From an uncultured Opitutaceae bacterium (lineage in GTDB: Bacteria; Verrucomicrobiota; Verrucomicrobiia; Opitutales; Opitutaceae), in NCBI GenBank assembly GCA_903919205.1, contig CAIXHE010000141.1, forward strand, positions 1 through 33,071: 33,071 bases of DNA, in the 5' to 3' direction. The notes beneath the pieces were generated by a model. It was not told the DNA's origin. It made no database searches and was given only the letters and a program-made list of their open reading frames with translations. A program made the translations under genes and the position numbers. Shown piece after piece: positions 7,610 to 30,364 of this stretch (its first letter is position 1; each line of letters opens with the position of its first letter).

Positions 7610-8293
7610 CTAGTTCTGCGATATATGATCGTCCGGCAGCCCGCCCTGCAATTTCAAATTCAGCAGTGCCGCGTCAATTTCCGTCCGCAGCACCTGCAGC
7701 AGCAGCACGAGCCTGCGGTTCACGTCGAGCGTCTCGAGGAGCCGCTGCTTCACCGGGGCGCTCTGGCAGAGGTTGAAGGCCGCGATGTCGGAGAAGATCT
7801 CGGGGTCCTCCACGCTGCGCAGGAGTTCGCCCATGCCCTCGATCCCGCCGGGCGAAAGCTTCAGCTTGAGCTTGATCAGCCGGGTAAGCTCGGTCCGCAG
7901 CCGGGCGTTTTCGCCCGGCTCGGCCCCGGGCTCGCTGGAAAGGGCCTTCACCCGGATCCGCCGGTAGGGTTCCTCGCCCACGATCGCCTCGATGGAAACG
8001 CGGCAAAGCCCTTGGAGAAGGAGGTTTGAGGTCCCGTCGTCGTTGCCCTGGCAGGCGCGGATTAGCCCGATGCACGCCACGCGGTGCGGCGGCTCCCGCT
8101 CGGGATCCACGGCGGCCGCGTCCGAATCGAGGCAGGCCACGGCGAAGAGCCGGTTGCCCTCGAGCACGTCCTGCAGCATCTGCCGGTAGCGGGGCTCGAA
8201 GATCCTCAGGGGAAGCAGGGCCTGGGGAAAGAACGCGAGCTCGGGCAATGTCATCACAGGCACCTCATCGGGCACTTGGATCTCGACTTCCAT
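7610..8293 (-). CDS. stand-alone LON substrate-binding-domain protein
   Basis: The 227-residue protein resembles the N-terminal (substrate-recognition) domain of Lon protease: VPVMTLPELAFFPQALLPLRIFEPRYRQM matches the family opening, followed by LFAVACLD, VACIGLIRACQ, LLLQGLCRVSI and a helical C-terminal half (LTRLIKLKLKLSPGGIEG to LLLLQVLRTEID). There is no ATPase or protease domain. Such proteins are widespread, and their role is mostly inferred as substrate or chaperone-like binding. It is divergent from dnaK across a 246-base regulatory region, so shared stress control is conceivable but not shown. The ATG at 8293 fits the family start. Confidence 0.88.
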   Translation of the reverse strand: MEVEIQVPDEVPVMTLPELAFFPQALLPLRIFEPRYRQMLQDVLEGNRLFAVACLDSDAAAVDPEREPPHRVACIGLIRACQGNDDGTSNLLLQGLCRVSIEAIVGEEPYRRIRVKALSSEPGAEPGENARLRTELTRLIKLKLKLSPGGIEGMGELLRSVEDPEIFSDIAAFNLCQSAPVKQRLLETLDVNRRLVLLLQVLRTEIDAALLNLKLQGGLPDDHISQN

Positions 8294-8344
8294 GGTCCCA
8301 GTAAGGCTCCGTTGGCCGGATAATCAAGAGGCCCATCCAACTAT

Positions 8345-8505
8345 CACCGTTTTTCGGTGCCGGAAGGGTCGCGCCACTGTGCCATCGCCGTGTGCCATTG
8401 CCCCCAAAGTGTGCCAAAATAGCCCAAAATGGGCCATCGGCGGAAAGCTCGAAAAACCACCGGATTATTTTAAGTAAATAGTATAAAGCAACTAACGAAA
8501 GTTAG
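8345..8505. promoter_or_regulatory. dnaK/LON-domain intergenic regulatory region with repeats and a putative dnaK promoter
   Basis: The 246-base gap holds an ordered set of elements. A hairpin CACCG-TTTTT-CGGTG lies at 8345-8359. Three direct copies of TGTGCCA lie at 8378-8384, 8391-8397 and 8410-8416. A hairpin GCCCA-AAA-TGGGC lies at 8422-8434. An AT-rich stretch contains a -10-like TATAAA (8482-8487) without a recognisable -35. The inverted repeat CTAAC-GAAA-GTTAG (8492-8505) falls near the expected start of transcription. No CIRCE element (TTAGCACTC-N9-GAGTGCTAA) is present. The elements are seen directly; any regulatory role is inferred. Confidence 0.45.
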
Positions 8506-8539
8506 CGTTTGAAGGCACGGACACTGCTACCTTGCGGGC

Positions 8540-20338: not shown

Positions 20339-21127
20339 TCAGCGCCGGTCCGGCCGGCCCGACTCGCGCGACCAGCGGAAGAAGCAGAGGCCGAGGGCCG
20401 TCAGCGAGACCGACATGCCGACCACCTTCATGATCGCTCCGGCGACCAGCTGGTCGTCGGCCGGCGAGAACCCCGCCAGGAGGCGCGGCGCGTACGCGTA
20501 GGTCGGGTAGAGGATGTCCTGCGAGAACACCACGTACGCCGCCACCGGGATCATCCCGATCTCGGTCGCCACGCAGTAGAGCATGCGCACCGGGTAGCTC
20601 GGCGCCGGGAACAGCCGCGAGGGGCTCGCCAGCGGCCACCAGAAGAGGAGCGACACCGCCAGGAACATCAGGTGCTCGCCCACGTGCACGAGCTTGTCCT
20701 GGAGGGTCCACTCGTAGAGGAACGGCGCGTGCCAGACGCTGATGACGAGGGTCGAGACGAGGGCGCAGGTGACCGGGTTCAGGACCGCCCGCACGAGGCC
20801 CCGGGGGCAGCGGCCGAGCGCCGCGTCCACCATCCACTCGGGAAGCCCGAGCAGCATCAGCAGCGGCACCGGGTACATGATCAGCATGTGCTGCACCATG
20901 TGCGCCGAGAGCAGGAAGCGCTCGGCCACCTGGTCGAGCGGGGAGCCCACGGCCAGGTAGAAGAGGACGAGGCCCGAGTAGAAGGCGGCGGCCTTGCCGC
21001 GGGGGTAGGGGGTCCCCGGGGCGAGCCTCGGGCGAAGCGGGCCGGCCAGGATCGCGTACAGCCAGCCGGCCAGGATCAGGCCCCCGGTCAGGAACGGCTC
21101 ATTGTGCCAGTGCCTCCAGTCGATCAT
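20339..21127 (-). CDS. ctaG: caa3-type cytochrome c oxidase assembly factor CtaG
   Basis: The 262-residue multi-spanning membrane protein belongs to the caa3_CtaG family (not the Cox11-type CtaG). Conserved features are SAHMVQHMLIMYPVPLLMLLG, ISVWHAPFLYEW, VGEHLMFLAVSLLFWWPLAS, and an N-terminal WRHWHNEPFLTGG. Histidine-rich membrane segments suggest copper handling for oxidase assembly, as inferred for this family. It is the last gene of the cta operon, 33 bases after ctaF, and ends near the cysK terminator. Length and context fit. Confidence 0.93.
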   Translation of the reverse strand: MIDWRHWHNEPFLTGGLILAGWLYAILAGPLRPRLAPGTPYPRGKAAAFYSGLVLFYLAVGSPLDQVAERFLLSAHMVQHMLIMYPVPLLMLLGLPEWMVDAALGRCPRGLVRAVLNPVTCALVSTLVISVWHAPFLYEWTLQDKLVHVGEHLMFLAVSLLFWWPLASPSRLFPAPSYPVRMLYCVATEIGMIPVAAYVVFSQDILYPTYAYAPRLLAGFSPADDQLVAGAIMKVVGMSVSLTALGLCFFRWSRESGRPDRR

Positions 21128-24183: not shown

Positions 24184-25443
24184 TTATTTGAGGCTCTGGA
24201 GGTAGGCGACGAGGGCGTTCTCGTCTTCGGGGGTGAGCTTGATCTGGTTGGCGAGGTAGCCGCTGACCCACATCTTGTTGCCCGGCTTCACCTCGTTCGG
24301 CGCGTGGATCCAGCGGTGGACCTCGTCGCGGTTGTTCTCAAGGAGTCCGGCGGCGATCGTCGAGCGGGCGCCCACGTGGGTGAGCTCGGGCCCGACGACG
24401 CCGATGTAGCCATCGCCGCGCACGGTGTGGCAGCTGGAGCAGGTCTTGGAGGCGAAGAGCTTGCGGCCGGTGGCCACGAGCGCCGCGTCCTCGCCGGGGC
24501 TCGGCTGCTGCTGCTTGCGCCAGCCCGCGAGCGGATCGGCGTCGAACGCCTCCGTCGTGCCGGCCTCGTTGCGCTTGAACGTGCGGTAGGAGGCGAACTG
24601 GGCCTTCGGCTTCGCCTCGTCGGCCACGGGGGCCTCGAGGTGGCGGGCGGGCTCGGCCTGGTTGCTCAGCCAGTCGTTGAACTCCCGCGGCCCGAGGGCG
24701 ATCACGCGGAAGCGCATCACGGCGTGGGACTCGCCGCAGAACTCGGCGCACTGCCCCCAGAAGTACCCGGCCTTGTCGGCCTCGATCCAGAGGTGGTTGG
24801 CGCGGTTCGGCATCATGTCGACCTTGCCCGCCAGCTTGGGGATCCAGAAGCTGTGGATCACGTCGAGCGTGCGCAGGTTGATCTCGACCGGGCGGCCGAC
24901 CGGGATCACGAGCTCGTTGGCCGTCGAGAAGGCCGCGTTCACGGTCTTGCCGCTCGCGTCCACGGTCTTCGCGACCTCGTTCGGGTAGTCGAACTTGAAC
25001 CACCACTGGTAGCCGGTGGCTGTCACCACGTAGGCGTTGGCCTTCTCGTCGGCTGGGACGTCGTACGAGTACCAGATGCCCTTCAGGGTCGGGATCGCGA
25101 TGATCACGAGCGCCAGCACCGAGGCGCCGATCAGGCTCACCTCGACCAGCGGGTTGCCATGGGCCTCCTCCGGGGGCTCGGCATGGGCGTCGGCGTCGCT
25201 GCGGGCCAGGAACTTGAAGTTGGTGTAGGCGAGCACGGCACCCACCGCCATGAAGATCACAAGGCACACCCAGCAGGTCACATAGAAGAGGTCCATCTGG
25301 TGGCGCGCCACCGGACCATGCGGGTCGAACGTGGACTGCGGACCGTCGAACCAGAAGCACCCGGACAGCATCGTCGCCAGGCCCAGGAGGGCCGGAAAAC
25401 GGGCGGATTTAGTCAAAAGTGAGGCAAATGTGTGCAAACGCAT
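24184..25443 (-). CDS. ctaC: cytochrome c oxidase subunit II with fused cytochrome c domain (caa3 type)
   Basis: From ATG 25443, 419 residues. A lipoprotein signal (LATMLSGC) precedes two membrane helices (LFYVTCWVCLVIFMAVGAVL; VSLIGASVLALVIIAI). The CuA domain has YQWWFKFDYP, VIHSFWIPKLAGKVDMMP and the CuA ligands in CAEFCGESHAVMRF. A C-terminal cytochrome c domain carries CSSCH, with likely axial Met in NKMWVSG. This makes the enzyme a caa3-type oxidase taking electrons through its own haem c. Longer in-frame readings upstream lack the signal sequence context. It heads the cta operon; a plausible promoter lies at 25492-25521. Confidence 0.96.
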   Translation of the reverse strand: MRLHTFASLLTKSARFPALLGLATMLSGCFWFDGPQSTFDPHGPVARHQMDLFYVTCWVCLVIFMAVGAVLAYTNFKFLARSDADAHAEPPEEAHGNPLVEVSLIGASVLALVIIAIPTLKGIWYSYDVPADEKANAYVVTATGYQWWFKFDYPNEVAKTVDASGKTVNAAFSTANELVIPVGRPVEINLRTLDVIHSFWIPKLAGKVDMMPNRANHLWIEADKAGYFWGQCAEFCGESHAVMRFRVIALGPREFNDWLSNQAEPARHLEAPVADEAKPKAQFASYRTFKRNEAGTTEAFDADPLAGWRKQQQPSPGEDAALVATGRKLFASKTCSSCHTVRGDGYIGVVGPELTHVGARSTIAAGLLENNRDEVHRWIHAPNEVKPGNKMWVSGYLANQIKLTPEDENALVAYLQSLK

Positions 25444-25557: not shown

Positions 25558-25678
25558 CGCAAATGCCGGGGCGGGTTAGCCCCCACCTATAAGGCAGGGG
25601 CCCGGCCGCCGCGCCGCGCCTAATGGAGATGGGTTTCGGTTTGCGCTCCGCGGGGATCGGGTCGAGCCTTTGGCTCCC

Positions 25679-26158
25679 ATGAAGCTCCATCTTCTGATCC
25701 CCACCGCCCTTGTCGCTTTCGTCACTTCCGGCTGCGGCCCGAAGGACACCCCCGCCGCGGCCTCCGCGGCCCCGGGCCCCCAGACCATCGAGATCACCGC
25801 CGGTGACACGATGAAGTACAGCATCACGGCCATTTCCGCCAAGCCAGGCGAGGACCTCAAGGTGATCCTGACCAACGAGGGCACCCAGCCCGCCGAGGTC
25901 ATGGGCCACAACTGGGTCCTCCTGAAGGCCGGCTCCGACGTCGCCGCCTTCGACGCGGCCGCGATCACCGCCAAGGACACCGGCTACATCCCGGCCTCGC
26001 TCAAGGACGAGGTGATCGCCCAGATCGGCCTCCTCGGGCCCCGCAAGTCCGGCGAGGCCGACTTCAAGGCCCCGACCACCCCCGGCGAGTACCCGTACCT
26101 CTGCACCTTCCCGGCCCACTACCAGGTCGGCATGCACGGGGTGCTGACGGTCAAGTAG
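25679..26158 (+). CDS. azurin-like type I copper lipoprotein
   Basis: The 159-residue blue copper protein has a lipoprotein signal peptide with lipobox TSGC (Cys18-19 region), so it should be tethered to a membrane facing the periplasm. The Cu ligands fit azurin: His in EVMGHNWVLL, then Cys, His and Met in YLCTFPAHYQVGMHG. The mature start TIEITAGDTMKYSITAISAK and NEGTQPAEV fit too. Azurins shuttle single electrons; here the likely partner is the adjacent caa3 oxidase (inference). The gene sits alone between two minus-strand cta blocks. ATG 25679 was chosen because it starts the signal peptide. Confidence 0.93.
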   Translation: MKLHLLIPTALVAFVTSGCGPKDTPAAASAAPGPQTIEITAGDTMKYSITAISAKPGEDLKVILTNEGTQPAEVMGHNWVLLKAGSDVAAFDAAAITAKDTGYIPASLKDEVIAQIGLLGPRKSGEADFKAPTTPGEYPYLCTFPAHYQVGMHGVLTVK

Positions 26159-26175: not shown

Positions 26176-26610
26176 TCAGACCCGGCCCGGCCACCACTGG
26201 TAGAGGAACAGGTAGACCAGGACGCCGGTCACGCTCACGTAGAACCAGATCGGGAACGTCACCCGGGCCCACGCCCGGTGACGCTCGAACTGGCCGCCCA
26301 GGGCGAGCAGGAACGTCCTCGGCACCAGGAAGGCGATCAGCGCCGCCAGCGGGATGTGCGTCCAGAGGATCGTGAAGTACACCCAGCGTATGGGCCCCGT
26401 GCCGCCGAAGGGCGTGTGCAGGCCGCGCGTGATCGCGTGGTAGGCCACGTAGAAGACGAGGAAGAGCGCGGAGGCCACCGCCGCCGTCAGCATGCAGGCG
26501 CGGTGGCGGACGCGGTCGCCCCTCTTGATGAAGACGAAGCCGGCGGTGATCAGCACGGTGGCGATCCCGTTCAGGGTCGCCTCGATGGCGGGTAGGTCGT
26601 GTACGGTCAT
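26176..26610 (-). CDS. DUF420 membrane protein (CtaM-like)
   Basis: The 144-residue protein has about four membrane helices: LNGIATVLITAGFVFI, AVASALFLVFYVAYHAI, WVYFTILWTHIPLAALIAFL and FPIWFYVSVTGVLVYLFLYQ. Conserved polar residues include HRACML, FYVAYHAI and TILWTHIP histidines, typical of DUF420. Family members such as CtaM are needed for maturation of haem A-containing oxidase in some Gram-positives; that role is inferred here from family and position. Its start overlaps the ctaB stop by 4 bases, and it is the last gene of ctaA-ctaB-DUF420. Confidence 0.88.
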   Translation of the reverse strand: MTVHDLPAIEATLNGIATVLITAGFVFIKRGDRVRHRACMLTAAVASALFLVFYVAYHAITRGLHTPFGGTGPIRWVYFTILWTHIPLAALIAFLVPRTFLLALGGQFERHRAWARVTFPIWFYVSVTGVLVYLFLYQWWPGRV

Positions 26611-27497
26611 GGGAGGTGGGAGAGCAGCCGGTCGGCCACGAGGGCCCCGAGGAGCACGGGCAGGTAGGCGAGCGAGAAGTGGAAGAGGCGCCGGGCGCTG
26701 GCATCGCGCTGCCTGGAGCGGATGAAGCCCGCGGCCCTCCACAGGAAGCCCGCGCCCGCGACCGCCGCCGCCGCCCCGTACCAGGGGCTGTCCAGGCGCA
26801 GCACGACCGGCAGGAAGCTCAAGATCACGAGGGCCAGCGTGGCCGTGAACGACCACGCCGCCACCTTCCGGCCCGACTCGTCGCGCACGGGGAGCATCGG
26901 GAAGTGCACGGCCGAGTAGTCCCTGCGGTAGGTCCAGGCGATCGCCATGAAGTGCGGGATCTGCCAGAGGAACAGGATCCCGAAGAGGATCCAGCCCAGG
27001 GCCGACACCGAGCCGTCGACGGCCGACCAGCCGATCAGCGGCGGGAACGCCCCGGCGATGGCGCCGATCTCGGTGCTCCATCGGCTCGTGCGCTTGGCCG
27101 GGGTGTACCACCCGAGGTACGCCGCGATCGTCAGCAGCGTGAAGAGCGCCGAGAGGCGCCCGACCTGCGTGAAGATGACGATCAGCGCGACGAAGCTCAT
27201 GCCCCATCCCAGCACGTACGCCGAGCCCCCGGGTATCCTACCGGTGGGGATCGGCCGCTGGGCGGTGCGGTGCATCCGAGCGTCCGTGTCGCTCTCGCTC
27301 CACTGGTTCAGGGCGGCGACGCCGCCCGCAGCGAGCGACGAGCCGAGCGCCAGGAACGCCACCTTGGCCGGGTCGTGGCCCGGGCGCGCCGCGAAGTAGC
27401 CCACGAGCGCCGTCAGCACCGAAAGCAGGCTGAGCCTGGGCTTGGTCAACTCGACGTAGTCGGCGAACCTCGCCGGCGGCTGGACGGCCTCGGTCAT
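26607..27497 (-). CDS. ctaB: protohaem IX farnesyltransferase (haem O synthase)
   Basis: The 296-residue UbiA-family membrane prenyltransferase attaches farnesyl to haem B to give haem O, the precursor of haem A. It begins MTEAVQPPARFADYVELTKP, with ELTKPRLSLL as the family opening. The Mg/prenyl-diphosphate site reads NQWSESDTDARMHRTAQRP, and the second region is AWTYRRDYSAVHFPMLPV. About nine helices are visible. It starts inside the ctaA stop (4-base overlap) and ends inside the DUF420 start. Longer in-frame upstream readings are shadows of ctaA. Confidence 0.96.
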   Translation of the reverse strand: MTEAVQPPARFADYVELTKPRLSLLSVLTALVGYFAARPGHDPAKVAFLALGSSLAAGGVAALNQWSESDTDARMHRTAQRPIPTGRIPGGSAYVLGWGMSFVALIVIFTQVGRLSALFTLLTIAAYLGWYTPAKRTSRWSTEIGAIAGAFPPLIGWSAVDGSVSALGWILFGILFLWQIPHFMAIAWTYRRDYSAVHFPMLPVRDESGRKVAAWSFTATLALVILSFLPVVLRLDSPWYGAAAAVAGAGFLWRAAGFIRSRQRDASARRLFHFSLAYLPVLLGALVADRLLSHLP

Positions 27498-28474
27498 GCG
27501 GCCGCGGTCGCCTCGATCTCGTCGCGGTGGGCGAGCCAGTTGAGCCAGAACGCGGTCACGAGCGTGAGGGCCCCCACGAGCACGTGGGCGGTCGTGATGT
27601 AGGGGTCGCGCATCGTCCGTATGATCGTGATGCCGAGCAGGATCTGCAGTGCGACCAGGCTCACGAGCACCGAGGCCCCCGAGCGCATCGTGACCGGCAG
27701 CGCCCGGTCCCTCCAGATCGCCACGGCGTACACCGCCACCCCCGCGGCCACGGCGACCGCCATCACCCGGTGCGCGAACTGGATCGCCACCCGGAAGGTC
27801 CACACCTCGGGCAGGAGGGCGCCCGACGGCGTGGACCAGGGAAAGGTCGGGATCGCGAGCCCCGCGAAGCTGTGGCGCATCACCGCGGCCACCGCGAGCT
27901 GCACGAACAGCAGGGCGCAGCAGACCGTGCCGGCCCGCCGCACCCCCGCCCCCGCCGGCAGGGGCCGCGTGATCCAGGGCCTGGAGCACGAGATCGCGAG
28001 CGCCACGAGCGTGCATGCGAAGCCCTGCGCGAGGCAGGCGTGGAGCATCGCGAAGAGCCGCCCCACGCTCGTGCCGATCGCCCCCAGCTGCACGGGGTCC
28101 AGCATCACGCGCAGGCCGCCGACGACCGCCTGTGCCACGACGAGGGCGATCGCGAAGACCGCGAGCCGGCGCACCCATGCCCGGGACTCGGTGCGCCACA
28201 CCCAGACCGCGAGTCCGAGCGTCAAGATCGTCATCAGCCCCGCGCTCAGCCGGTGGGAGTGCTCCGCGAACATCGCCAGGTTGGAGAGCCACCCGGTCGG
28301 GTTGAGCGAGCCGTTGGACAGCGGCCAGTCGGCGAACGCCATGCCGGCGCCGATCGTGGTGGTGAACGCGCCCAGCGTCACCAGCACGAACACCCAGAGG
28401 GCGGCGACGGCCGAGAACAGGGCCAGGCCCGGCTTGTAGCCGGGGGTGCGCGGGAGGTCGGCGGAGAAGGACAT
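27494..28474 (-). CDS. ctaA: haem A synthase (COX15/CtaA)
   Basis: This 326-residue protein of about eight helices oxidises haem O to haem A for the cytochrome oxidase. The four conserved histidines are in MFAEHSHRLSAGLM, LFAMLHACLAQG, IQFAHRVMAV and TTAHVLVGALTLVT. The sequence FTTTIGAGMAFADWPLSNG is the usual loop after helix 1. ATG 28474 (MSFSADLPRTPGYKP) is chosen; an upstream GTG-type extension to 28555 would add a basic low-similarity leader. It is divergent from the Sco gene, 79 bases apart. Confidence 0.94.
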   Translation of the reverse strand: MSFSADLPRTPGYKPGLALFSAVAALWVFVLVTLGAFTTTIGAGMAFADWPLSNGSLNPTGWLSNLAMFAEHSHRLSAGLMTILTLGLAVWVWRTESRAWVRRLAVFAIALVVAQAVVGGLRVMLDPVQLGAIGTSVGRLFAMLHACLAQGFACTLVALAISCSRPWITRPLPAGAGVRRAGTVCCALLFVQLAVAAVMRHSFAGLAIPTFPWSTPSGALLPEVWTFRVAIQFAHRVMAVAVAAGVAVYAVAIWRDRALPVTMRSGASVLVSLVALQILLGITIIRTMRDPYITTAHVLVGALTLVTAFWLNWLAHRDEIEATAAA

Positions 28475-28553
28475 GGCTGCGTCTAAGGGAAAGGCAGATG
28501 GTGGCACCCGCAAACCCTTTGACAATTTTTTCCTCAGGCGGATTGGTGTTGTC

Positions 28554-29450
28554 ATGAGACTTCCCGCCGCCCCGTCGCTCCTCGCAGCCGCGGCCCTTGC
28601 CGTGTCGCTCGCCGGCTGCGGCAGGGCCCCGGCGCCCGCCGCCGCGGCCGCCGCCCCCGCCGAGCGGCGCTACCCGCTGACGGGCGAGGTGGTCTCGGCC
28701 GACGTGGCGCACAAGACGCTCGTCGTGCGCCACGACGCCATCCCGGGCTACATGCCGGGGATGACGATGGACTTCCCGGTGTCGGCCGGCGACGCCGCGA
28801 ACGCCCGCCCGGGCGAGCGCATCCGGGCGCAGCTGGTCATCGACGCGGCCGGCAACGGCCGCCTCGAGTCGATCTGGCCCGACGACAAGGCGGCCCGGGA
28901 CACGGTGGACGCGGCCGCCAAGATGCTGCGCCAGGACACGACCGCCAAGGGCGGCTCCGCGTACCGCGAGGTCGGCGACGCGATCCCCGAGTTCGTGCTC
29001 TACGACCAGGACGGCCGCGTGGTCCAGAGCGGGCGCTTTCGCGGCCGCCAGGTGATGCTCAACTTCATCTACTCGCGCTGCCCGATCGCGAACATGTGCC
29101 CGCTGTCGACCACCAAGATGGTCGAGACGCAGAAGCTCGCCAAGGCGGCCGGCGTCCCCAACGTCGAGTTCGTCTCGATCACGCTGGATCCCGCCTACGA
29201 CACGCCCGGCGTCCTCAGGGAGTACGCCGGCGCCCGCGGCATCGACACGGCCAACTTCTCGTTCCTCACCGGCCCCGAGGCCGCCATCCGCGACCTGCTC
29301 ACCCAGTTCGGGGTCATCGCCCAGTTCCGCGGCACCTTCCTCGACCACACGCTCTCGACGCTCCTGATCGACGAGCAGGGGCGCGTGGCGTGGCGCGCCG
29401 ACGGCGGCGACTGGGACCCGAAGGAGTTCGTCCAGAGGATGCGCCGATGA
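28554..29450 (+). CDS. CusF-Sco1 fusion, copper delivery lipoprotein
   Basis: The 298-residue protein has a lipoprotein signal with lipobox SLAGC (C22). An N-terminal CusF-like copper-binding domain (~40-105: YPLTGEVVSADVAHKTLVVR, HDAIPGYMPGMTMDFPV) is followed by a Sco1/SenC thioredoxin-fold domain (~140-298). The Sco copper ligands are C176 and C182 in YSRCPIANMCP and H265 in FLDHTLSTLL. Classical Sco has C-x3-C; here the cysteines are spaced C-x5-C, a variant I have seen described in some lineages. It should metallate CuA of CtaC at the outer face of the membrane. A TTGACA at 28519-28524 is a possible -35, without a good -10. The stop overlaps the next start by 4 bases. Confidence 0.92.
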   Translation: MRLPAAPSLLAAAALAVSLAGCGRAPAPAAAAAAPAERRYPLTGEVVSADVAHKTLVVRHDAIPGYMPGMTMDFPVSAGDAANARPGERIRAQLVIDAAGNGRLESIWPDDKAARDTVDAAAKMLRQDTTAKGGSAYREVGDAIPEFVLYDQDGRVVQSGRFRGRQVMLNFIYSRCPIANMCPLSTTKMVETQKLAKAAGVPNVEFVSITLDPAYDTPGVLREYAGARGIDTANFSFLTGPEAAIRDLLTQFGVIAQFRGTFLDHTLSTLLIDEQGRVAWRADGGDWDPKEFVQRMRR

Positions 29451-30364
29451 CCGCGGTCGCGCACGAGGTGCGGCCCTGGCGCCAGGCCGCGCTCATCACG
29501 GCCGCGGCCGTCGCGCTCTTCGTCGTCGTGCGCGAGCTGCCGACCGGCACCAACCTGAGCCACATGGACTTTCGCGTCCAGGGCGGCAACGTGATCGAGT
29601 TCTGCGACCCCGCTAACCCCCAGTTCCTGCCGGTCGTGGCCGTCAGGTCGCCCGTCACCCTCACCGTCGCCGCCCCGAGCCCCCGGGCCGGCACCGACGT
29701 CGCGGCGACCTTGGTCCTCACCACCTTCAGCGGAAAGCCGATCGCGCCCGAGGACCTGCAGGTGGTCCAGACCAAGCGGATCCACCTGCTGATCGCGGAC
29801 CCCTCGCTTGACGACTACCAGCACGTGCATCCAGAGCCCGGCAGCAGGGCGGGGGAGTGGGCGTTCCACTTCCACCCCCGCTTCGGGGGCACCTACCGCA
29901 TCTTCGCGGACTTCACCCCCGTGGCCACGAACCGCGGGCTCTACTCGGAGGCCGAGATGCAGGTGGCCGGCGAGCCGAGCCCGGTCCTCGCCGGCACGCA
30001 GCGCCCGTCCTGGGAGGCCACCGAGGGCCCCTACCGCTTCACGCTCGGGGCCTCGGCGCTGCCGATCCGCGCGGGGGTGCCCGCGACCCTGCGGCTCGGC
30101 GTGACGCGCCTGGGCGGCGGCGCGGTGCCGCTCGAGCCGGTCATGGACGCCTTCGCGCACCTGGTCGCCTTCGACGACCGGCGCAGCGGCTTCGCGCACA
30201 TCCACCCCGACCAGCGGGACGTTTCACAGAAGCCCGACTCGACGCACCCCTCCTTCACCTTCCGTGTGATGATCCCGAGCCCCGGCCGCTACGTCATCTG
30301 GAGCGAGGTGAAGCTCGGCGGACGGGAGACCTTCGCCCCCTTCTGGTTCGACGTCGCCCCCTGA
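29447..30364 (+). CDS. membrane-anchored histidine-rich protein with tandem duplicated domain
   Basis: The 305-residue protein has one N-terminal membrane anchor (residues 13-28, ALITAAAVALFVVVRE) and two similar beta-rich modules. Module 1 (~66-175) has RIHLLIADPSLDDYQHVHPE and FHFHPRFGGTYRIFADF. Module 2 (~195-305) has FAHLVAFDD, FAHIHPDQ and FTFRVMIPSPGRYVIWSEV. Each carries a x-His-Leu strand followed by His-x-His-Pro, looking like a metal (perhaps copper) site. I do not know a named family. It is translationally coupled to the Sco gene (ATGA overlap), suggesting a periplasmic role in copper or oxidase assembly, but no function is demonstrated. It ends 1 base before the converging amn stop. 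Confidence 0.85.
   Translation: MTAVAHEVRPWRQAALITAAAVALFVVVRELPTGTNLSHMDFRVQGGNVIEFCDPANPQFLPVVAVRSPVTLTVAAPSPRAGTDVAATLVLTTFSGKPIAPEDLQVVQTKRIHLLIADPSLDDYQHVHPEPGSRAGEWAFHFHPRFGGTYRIFADFTPVATNRGLYSEAEMQVAGEPSPVLAGTQRPSWEATEGPYRFTLGASALPIRAGVPATLRLGVTRLGGGAVPLEPVMDAFAHLVAFDDRRSGFAHIHPDQRDVSQKPDSTHPSFTFRVMIPSPGRYVIWSEVKLGGRETFAPFWFDVAP

Follow-up and report, generated by a model that had tools for sequence, protein, structure and literature searches.

In the passages of a review that deal with oxidase assembly, the building of CuA at low copper is described as generally needing Sco together with a second protein, of the PCuAC or CtaK type (PMC9145763). That second place is taken by PCuAC in Proteobacteria and by CtaK in Bacillus. 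The DNA investigated here (the window, 33,071 nucleotides from an uncultured Opitutaceae bacterium) contains a cluster for a caa3-type oxidase, and directly behind its Sco gene lies a gene for a protein with two His-x-His-Pro modules (Table 1). The question raised by this locus is whether the twin-domain protein takes the second place beside Sco in a lineage of the Verrucomicrobiota.

Gene and protein

A four-base overlap with the CusF-Sco gene had been reported in the initial annotation and was found again, as an ATGA shared by the stop of one gene and the start of the next. Such an overlap is possible in 53 out of 78 Sco/twin-domain gene pairs of the named relatives, which are MAGs labelled Opitutaceae or related Verrucomicrobiota and have at most 76 % identity to the protein. 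The genome to which the window belongs (87.7 % complete) contains a single copy of the gene. The initial annotation knew of no named family for it, and none of the families in Pfam and NCBIfam was matched at E≤1; likewise, there was no match to PDB sequences at E≤10, no lead from PADLOC, and neither a published name nor a tandem YtkA protein in the literature searched. Ahead of the two modules are features that were absent from the initial description, a predicted membrane helix and a conserved segment containing H39 and C53, the latter possibly serving as an extra Cu(I) or docking site.

Table 1. Features of the window around the twin-domain gene
Feature	Position	Strand	Evidence and remarks
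Caa3_CtaG assembly factor	20366..21064	-	PF09678 1.6e-54
caa3-type subunit II (COX2, C-terminal cytochrome c)	24184..25431	-	PF00116 1e-20, PF00034 1.4e-10; start not refined
Azurin/plastocyanin-type cupredoxin in caa3 cluster	25670-26158	+	
DUF420 protein (CtaM type)	26176..26616	-	PF04238 6.5e-42; start not refined
Heme O synthase type (CyoE/CtaB)	26607..27554	-	PF01040 9e-55; start not refined
CtaA heme A synthase	27494..28555	-	PF02628 5.5e-31
CusF-Sco fusion gene, putative partner	28554..29450	+	CusF 6.3e-12, SCO1-SenC 1.5e-23; lipobox Cys22, C176-x5-C182, H265
Twin-domain His-x-His-Pro protein gene (protein P0001)	29447..30364	+	305 aa plus stop; ORF and homologues
ATGA overlap, Sco stop/twin-domain gene start	29447..29450	+	Sco gene ends at 29450
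N-terminal membrane helix, residues 10-30	29474..29536	+	Predicted from model helix and hydrophobic stretch; topology putative
Juxtamembrane conserved segment, residues 36-60, with H39 and C53	29552..29626	+	Conservation; pLDDT ~66-67 here
Domain 1, residues 62-178, Ig-like beta sandwich	29630..29980	+	Model, profile comparison
Triad 1 (H113, H126, H128), first strand 112-117, second strand 124-127	29783..29830	+	Candidate metal site
Domain 2, residues 186-305, Ig-like beta sandwich	30002..30361	+	Model pLDDT 94.9; VIA-align Z 10.9
Triad 2 (H238, H251, H253), first strand 238-243, second strand 248-252	30158..30205	+	Candidate metal site

Internal duplication and conserved residues

The tandem duplication that had been proposed from the sequence is well supported. 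Local alignment of the two halves of P0001 gives a score of 60, which was reached by none of 2000 shuffles of one half (mean 28.3, SD 4.9, maximum 50). Comparison of half against half with hhalign, where E-values are those of a single comparison, gave a probability of 91 (E 1e-6) for close relatives (the 52-row alignment A3), 98.5 (E 1.8e-15) for 22 rows of alignment A1, from which the degenerate rows L026 and L028 had been dropped beforehand, and 99 for 13 plasmid relatives alone. A chance repeat is ruled out by the shuffle test and the hhalign comparisons. The His-x-His-Pro described for each module recurs with equal spacing, as H113-x12-H126-x-H128-P and H238-x12-H251-x-H253-P, and both motifs are present in 79 of the 80 named loci, the sole miss (L135) being cut by a contig end. 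The closing strand of each module had been called Tyr-rich; its tyrosine is conserved, although with one conserved residue per module (Y150 and Y282) it is not rich in them.

When A1 is taken with all 24 rows, including the two degenerate ones, 16 columns are listed as nearly invariant, seven of them histidines: H39 and the six triad residues. The six are identical in 31 out of 31 aligned rows from five phyla, a set of 18 proteins from the Verrucomicrobiota and 13 plasmid proteins (Bacillota, Actinomycetota, Bacteroidota, and Cyanobacteriota) from which L026 and L028 were left out and which never included the orthologues of genomes G001 and G009 or loci L171 and L174. H39 is kept in 30 of these rows and in 96 % of A3. 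The only cysteine of P0001, C53, is identical in all 52 rows of A3 and all 18 Verrucomicrobiota rows, yet is found in just one of the 13 plasmid rows. The remaining histidines are poorly conserved.

Predicted structure

The AlphaFold2 model made on A3 (mean pLDDT 89.5, pTM 0.82) consists of a helix at residues 10-30 followed by two beta domains, with residues 31-70 weakly predicted (pLDDT blocks 66-77). In each domain the first triad histidine (H113, H238) begins the first strand of a pair, the second (H126, H251) is contained in the second strand, and the third (H128, H253) lies just behind it. If the strands pair round the short loop, H113 would face H128 and H238 would face H253 in the same register, judging from the strand boundaries. 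Absence of symmetry and scattering of the histidines had been named at the outset as evidence against a two-site protein; the model shows two similar domains whose triads occupy corresponding pairs of strands, and the predicted strand boundaries suggest that the histidines of each triad cluster. Of the proposed periplasmic two-site metal binder, the extracytoplasmic placement (a helix, then beta domains) and the two candidate sites are supported by the prediction, and metal binding is a role that these sites may have.

As a whole the model resembles tandem Ig proteins generally, and matches in a viral structure library were generic Ig folds. The first Foldseek match was Cu-bound Zcp (E 9.7e-6, TM-scores 0.22/0.27). 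Unrelated tandem Ig proteins reach almost equal Foldseek scores and a relation to Zcp was rejected; it is absent from the best 50 matches of the whole model in a second structure comparison, was not returned by sequence searches with P0001, A1, or A3, and nothing was found on it in the literature searched. For domain 2 modelled alone, the top VIA-align match was CrdA of Helicobacter pylori with silver (Z 10.9, 2.6 A over 100 residues, 9 % identity), 1.5 in Z above the next protein, DUF4785 (9.4), which was followed by copper-bound FetP (9.3) and HftA (9.1). Lower in the list copper-bound P19 and PmoD are mixed with proteins unrelated to copper. Foldseek placed DUF4426 first (4.6e-4), CrdA third (E 8e-4), and PmoD fifth for the same domain.

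Linkage to Sco and co-occurrence with the oxidase

A tie to Sco and the caa3 oxidase was part of the initial annotation, and gene neighbourhoods of homologues were suggested there as a check. Among 57 genomes, that of the window included, the twin-domain gene is directly downstream of Sco on the same strand in 38 out of 38 carriers (Sco profile). Of the 80 named loci, 78 have a Sco gene ahead of the twin-domain gene; of the other two, L086 begins at a contig end and L096 shows none. The nearest possible start of the twin-domain gene is no more than 200 bases from the Sco stop in 77 of these 78 loci and 488 bases away in one. Of 29 more divergent loci, counted after dropping a 10-base stub (L164), 21 have a neighbouring Sco gene on the same strand, as detected by BLAST with the Sco of the window.

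In the 57 genomes Sco is present in all 38 carriers versus 11 of the 19 non-carriers (p 5e-5), and COX2 in all 38 carriers versus 7 of 19 (Fisher p 7e-8). When only the 46 genomes at least 90 % complete are counted, COX2 is found in 32 out of 32 carriers versus 6 out of 14 non-carriers (p 1e-5). A long COX2, defined as a stop-to-stop frame no shorter than 340 aa, the length of the caa3 type, is present in 38 out of 38 carriers versus one of the seven COX2-bearing non-carriers (p 9e-7). Because the genomes are related, all of these p-values overstate the evidence. The exception is genome G035, a non-carrier with a long COX2, in which the family profile matched none of three regions (two round Sco genes and one round COX2). 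No recurrent substitute gene was seen behind Sco at nine Sco loci of non-carriers, compared by ORF only.

PCuAC was found in none of the 57 genomes. YtkA/CtaK gave no match at E≤10 in the genome of the window and was found in one of 145 genomes of the phylum at E≤1e-6; Cox11 was not found in the window's own genome. The cluster in the window further holds COX3 and COX1, and its subunit II, with the motifs CAEFC and CSSCH, is presumed to be the final copper acceptor (CuA). DUF420 (CtaM) may export copper, according to the part of PMC13344008 concerned with it.

Some variation was seen around these genes. A homologue of the azurin/plastocyanin-type cupredoxin is present in 57 of the 80 named loci, not all of these being long enough to include one. 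The Sco motif is given as CXXXC in the review (PMC9145763, in the passage on Sco), in place of which the window Sco has C-x5-C (C176, C182). The same x5 spacing occurs in 97 of 100 Sco-like ORFs of loci L057-L163, and second Sco copies in the genomes of those loci are of both the x5 and the other kind. As a special feature of the partner CX5C was rejected; it is also present in 8 out of 10 in non-carrier genomes. The class-level relatives L155 and L156 carry the double domain after a different N-terminal portion and do not directly follow Sco. Genome G029 has a second match (L166, ~7816-8514, -), a 763-aa frame in which hydrophobic stretches precede a C-terminal pair of similar HVHP/HLHP domains, likely a membrane-protein fusion.

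Comparison with CtaK, PCuAC, and CrdA

Membership of three known groups of copper proteins was rejected. P0001 has no match at E≤1 to YtkA/CtaK (PF13115) or to PCuAC (PF04314), its methionines (positions 1, 40, 171, 233, and 275, none clustered) do not give the PCuAC motif H(M)X10MX21HXM, and the Met-rich copper loop of CrdA (MMXEMPGMXXMXEM) is absent. Fold similarity to CrdA does not in itself make the protein a member.

Scanned singly, 6 of the 13 plasmid relatives give a PF13115 match at E<0.1, located in one or the other domain, the best at 1.7e-5 and 25.8 bits versus a cut-off of 25.9. Against five YtkA sequences the hhalign signal was mixed, with a probability of 69 for domain 2 and 6 for domain 1, and of 0.9 and 7.8 when plasmid rows only were used. 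The best PDB match of these five true YtkA sequences is CrdA (E 0.17). Based on these sub-cut-off matches, the mixed hhalign signal, and the CrdA match of the YtkA sequences, it is likely from sequence comparison that the domain shares a common origin with YtkA and CrdA.

For Bacillus subtilis, the passages on CtaK (YtkA) and on the YtkA domain of YcnJ in PMC9145763 and PMC13344008 describe proteins that are extracytoplasmic and membrane-tethered, as is predicted for the twin-domain protein, and that have conserved histidines, as it does. CtaK is thought there to act with Sco on the CuA of caa3 oxidase (PMC9145763, PMC13344008); for the twin-domain gene, linkage to Sco is seen in the genomes. 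Unlike CtaK, the protein has two domains, not one, H-x12-H-x-HP triads, and a membrane helix in place of a lipid anchor. Support of the B. subtilis caa3 oxidase by CtaK and the YcnJ domain has been shown genetically (PMC13344008, in the portion on these proteins), and CtaK mutants are reported in the corresponding part of the review to be rescued by added copper (PMC9145763). PCuAC is alike in proposed role, being described in that review's section on it as a copper binder that works together with Sco to assemble CuA (PMC9145763), whereas its motif is of Met and His and the triads are of His only. CrdA is a periplasmic copper protein and, as noted above, has the fold closest to domain 2 in VIA-align; however, it is a single domain with 9 % identity and a role in copper export and resistance, and binds copper through its Met-rich loop with no His (PMC9182242, as far as its account of the binding site goes), versus the His triads here.

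True YtkA (FixH-like) domains were also encountered in other settings: in L193 and L195 the next gene is annotated as being of the cytochrome c peroxidase type, and in L167 a diheme-peroxidase-like ORF follows.

Proposed function

With Sco, DUF420, and Caa3_CtaG present, PCuAC and CtaK not found, and the gene placed behind Sco, the twin-domain protein is proposed to bind copper in the periplasm and to partner Sco in assembling CuA, a position held elsewhere by PCuAC or CtaK. This is considered fairly probable, with copper binding and transfer as the predicted activities. The N-terminal helix would fix the protein to the inner membrane so that both domains project into the periplasm, and the three-His hairpin of each beta-sandwich domain would hold one copper ion, a step suggested by the conservation and equivalent placement of the triads. 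Copper would then be handed to Sco, possibly aided by His39 and Cys53, and by Sco to subunit II; this order is suggested by the arrangement of the genes, their co-occurrence, the failure to find PCuAC or CtaK, and the analogy to those two proteins. The protein may thus work like CtaK or PCuAC, although it belongs to neither as tested. Probably it is helpful when copper is scarce and not absolutely required.

The chances are about even for a broader proposal, in which the protein would found a third, unnamed class of Sco partners with two domains and six histidines; this class would load copper for caa3 oxidases in the Verrucomicrobiota and belong to a family reused in plasmid copper resistance operons of Bacillota, Actinomycetota, Bacteroidota, and Cyanobacteriota. 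A candidate for the copper route to CuA in bacteria without PCuAC or CtaK can now be named, in one phylum, and its predicted ligands, the triad histidines, can be named for mutation.

Plasmid relatives and alternative functions

There are 211 plasmid records that match the family at E≤0.01, of which 96 are from Staphylococcus. Fifteen of their neighbourhoods, chosen by hand and not at random, were opened, and a heavy-metal or cation P-type ATPase is nearby in 11 of them, frequently accompanied by genes for a CopZ-like protein and a CsoR-type regulator. Genes for HMBD and RND efflux proteins are near the relative in L168, a multicopper oxidase is ~2 kb away in L176, CueP is among the genes beside the plasmid relatives, and plastocyanin is near the unannotated match in L171 (E 7e-3); L054 has no such copper-type genes. 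The staphylococcal version in L053 (3905-4561, +) stands behind CsoR-type, CopA, and CopZ genes and is annotated as a hypothetical protein where looked at. A PDB sequence search with two plasmid relatives gave no lead. Like the twin-domain protein, these unnamed proteins have two domains, with all six triad histidines in the 13 aligned; unlike it, they are mostly without C53 and lie beside copper resistance genes, not Sco.

These neighbourhoods point to copper resistance, not oxidase assembly, for the plasmid relatives. A buffer or detoxifier would also be conceivable at the present locus, its two triads soaking up periplasmic copper and its adjacency to Sco reflecting shared copper handling only. 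The plasmid settings, with Cu-ATPase, CopZ-type, and CsoR-type genes or multicopper oxidase and CueP, agree with such a role, as does the copper-resistance protein CrdA as top VIA-align fold of domain 2. In the Verrucomicrobiota relatives, however, the gene follows Sco in all 38 carriers of the 57 genomes and tracks COX2, and no copper ATPase is annotated in the window cluster; storage or detoxification is therefore regarded as unlikely here. The initial annotation had left the choice between a copper reservoir and a chaperone. Since the gene stands behind Sco and co-occurs with the caa3-type oxidase in the lineage, and PCuAC and CtaK were not found, the predicted role of chaperone is favoured, with the reservoir as its rival. 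The family links oxidase assembly with plasmid copper resistance proteins annotated only as hypothetical, so that one biochemical test would inform both.

A sublineage with decayed triads

Four orthologues from the same genus (genomes G001, G009, G011, and G012; loci L137, L138, L139, and L140) are fast-evolving and still beside Sco, grouping together with support of 0.99 in the protein tree and 0.89 for the neighbouring Sco. H238 is the sole triad histidine left in G001 (five of six changed), H238 and H253 are left in G012 (four changed), and none is left in G011 (six changed). The protein of G009 ends after domain 1, in which all three triad histidines are changed; the second domain is missing in L138. 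COX2 is present in all four genomes, and the CuA motif C-x3-C-x3-H-x2-M is intact in the three in which COX2 is inside the examined locus. C53 is kept in all four orthologues and H39 in three.

Retention of the oxidase where the triads have decayed speaks against a strict requirement for them. The triads may be important under copper scarcity only, the sublineage may have a different solution, or the reading as a partner of Sco is wrong. One rival reading is a metal-free scaffold for oxidase assembly, which would act through its membrane anchor and the H39/C53 segment with dispensable triads. The persistence of C53 and, mostly, H39 beside Sco in these orthologues fits a scaffold, as does the invariance of C53 in A3. 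Scaffolding alone would not explain why, outside the fast-evolving sublineage, the triads are identical in every aligned row across five phyla, and C53 is absent from most plasmid relatives; this possibility is thus held to be quite improbable. Three-His sites also suit Zn or Co, Zcp was solved with Cu, Zn, and Co, and a single conserved Cys could react with the cysteines of Sco, but given the copper gene context both here and on plasmids, and a Zcp match that hardly exceeds those of unrelated tandem Ig proteins, a role with another metal (such as zinc, nickel, or cobalt) or in redox exchange with Sco through Cys53 is the least probable of the readings. For the copper partner of Sco proposed above, the decayed-triad sublineage provides a ready-made natural comparison.
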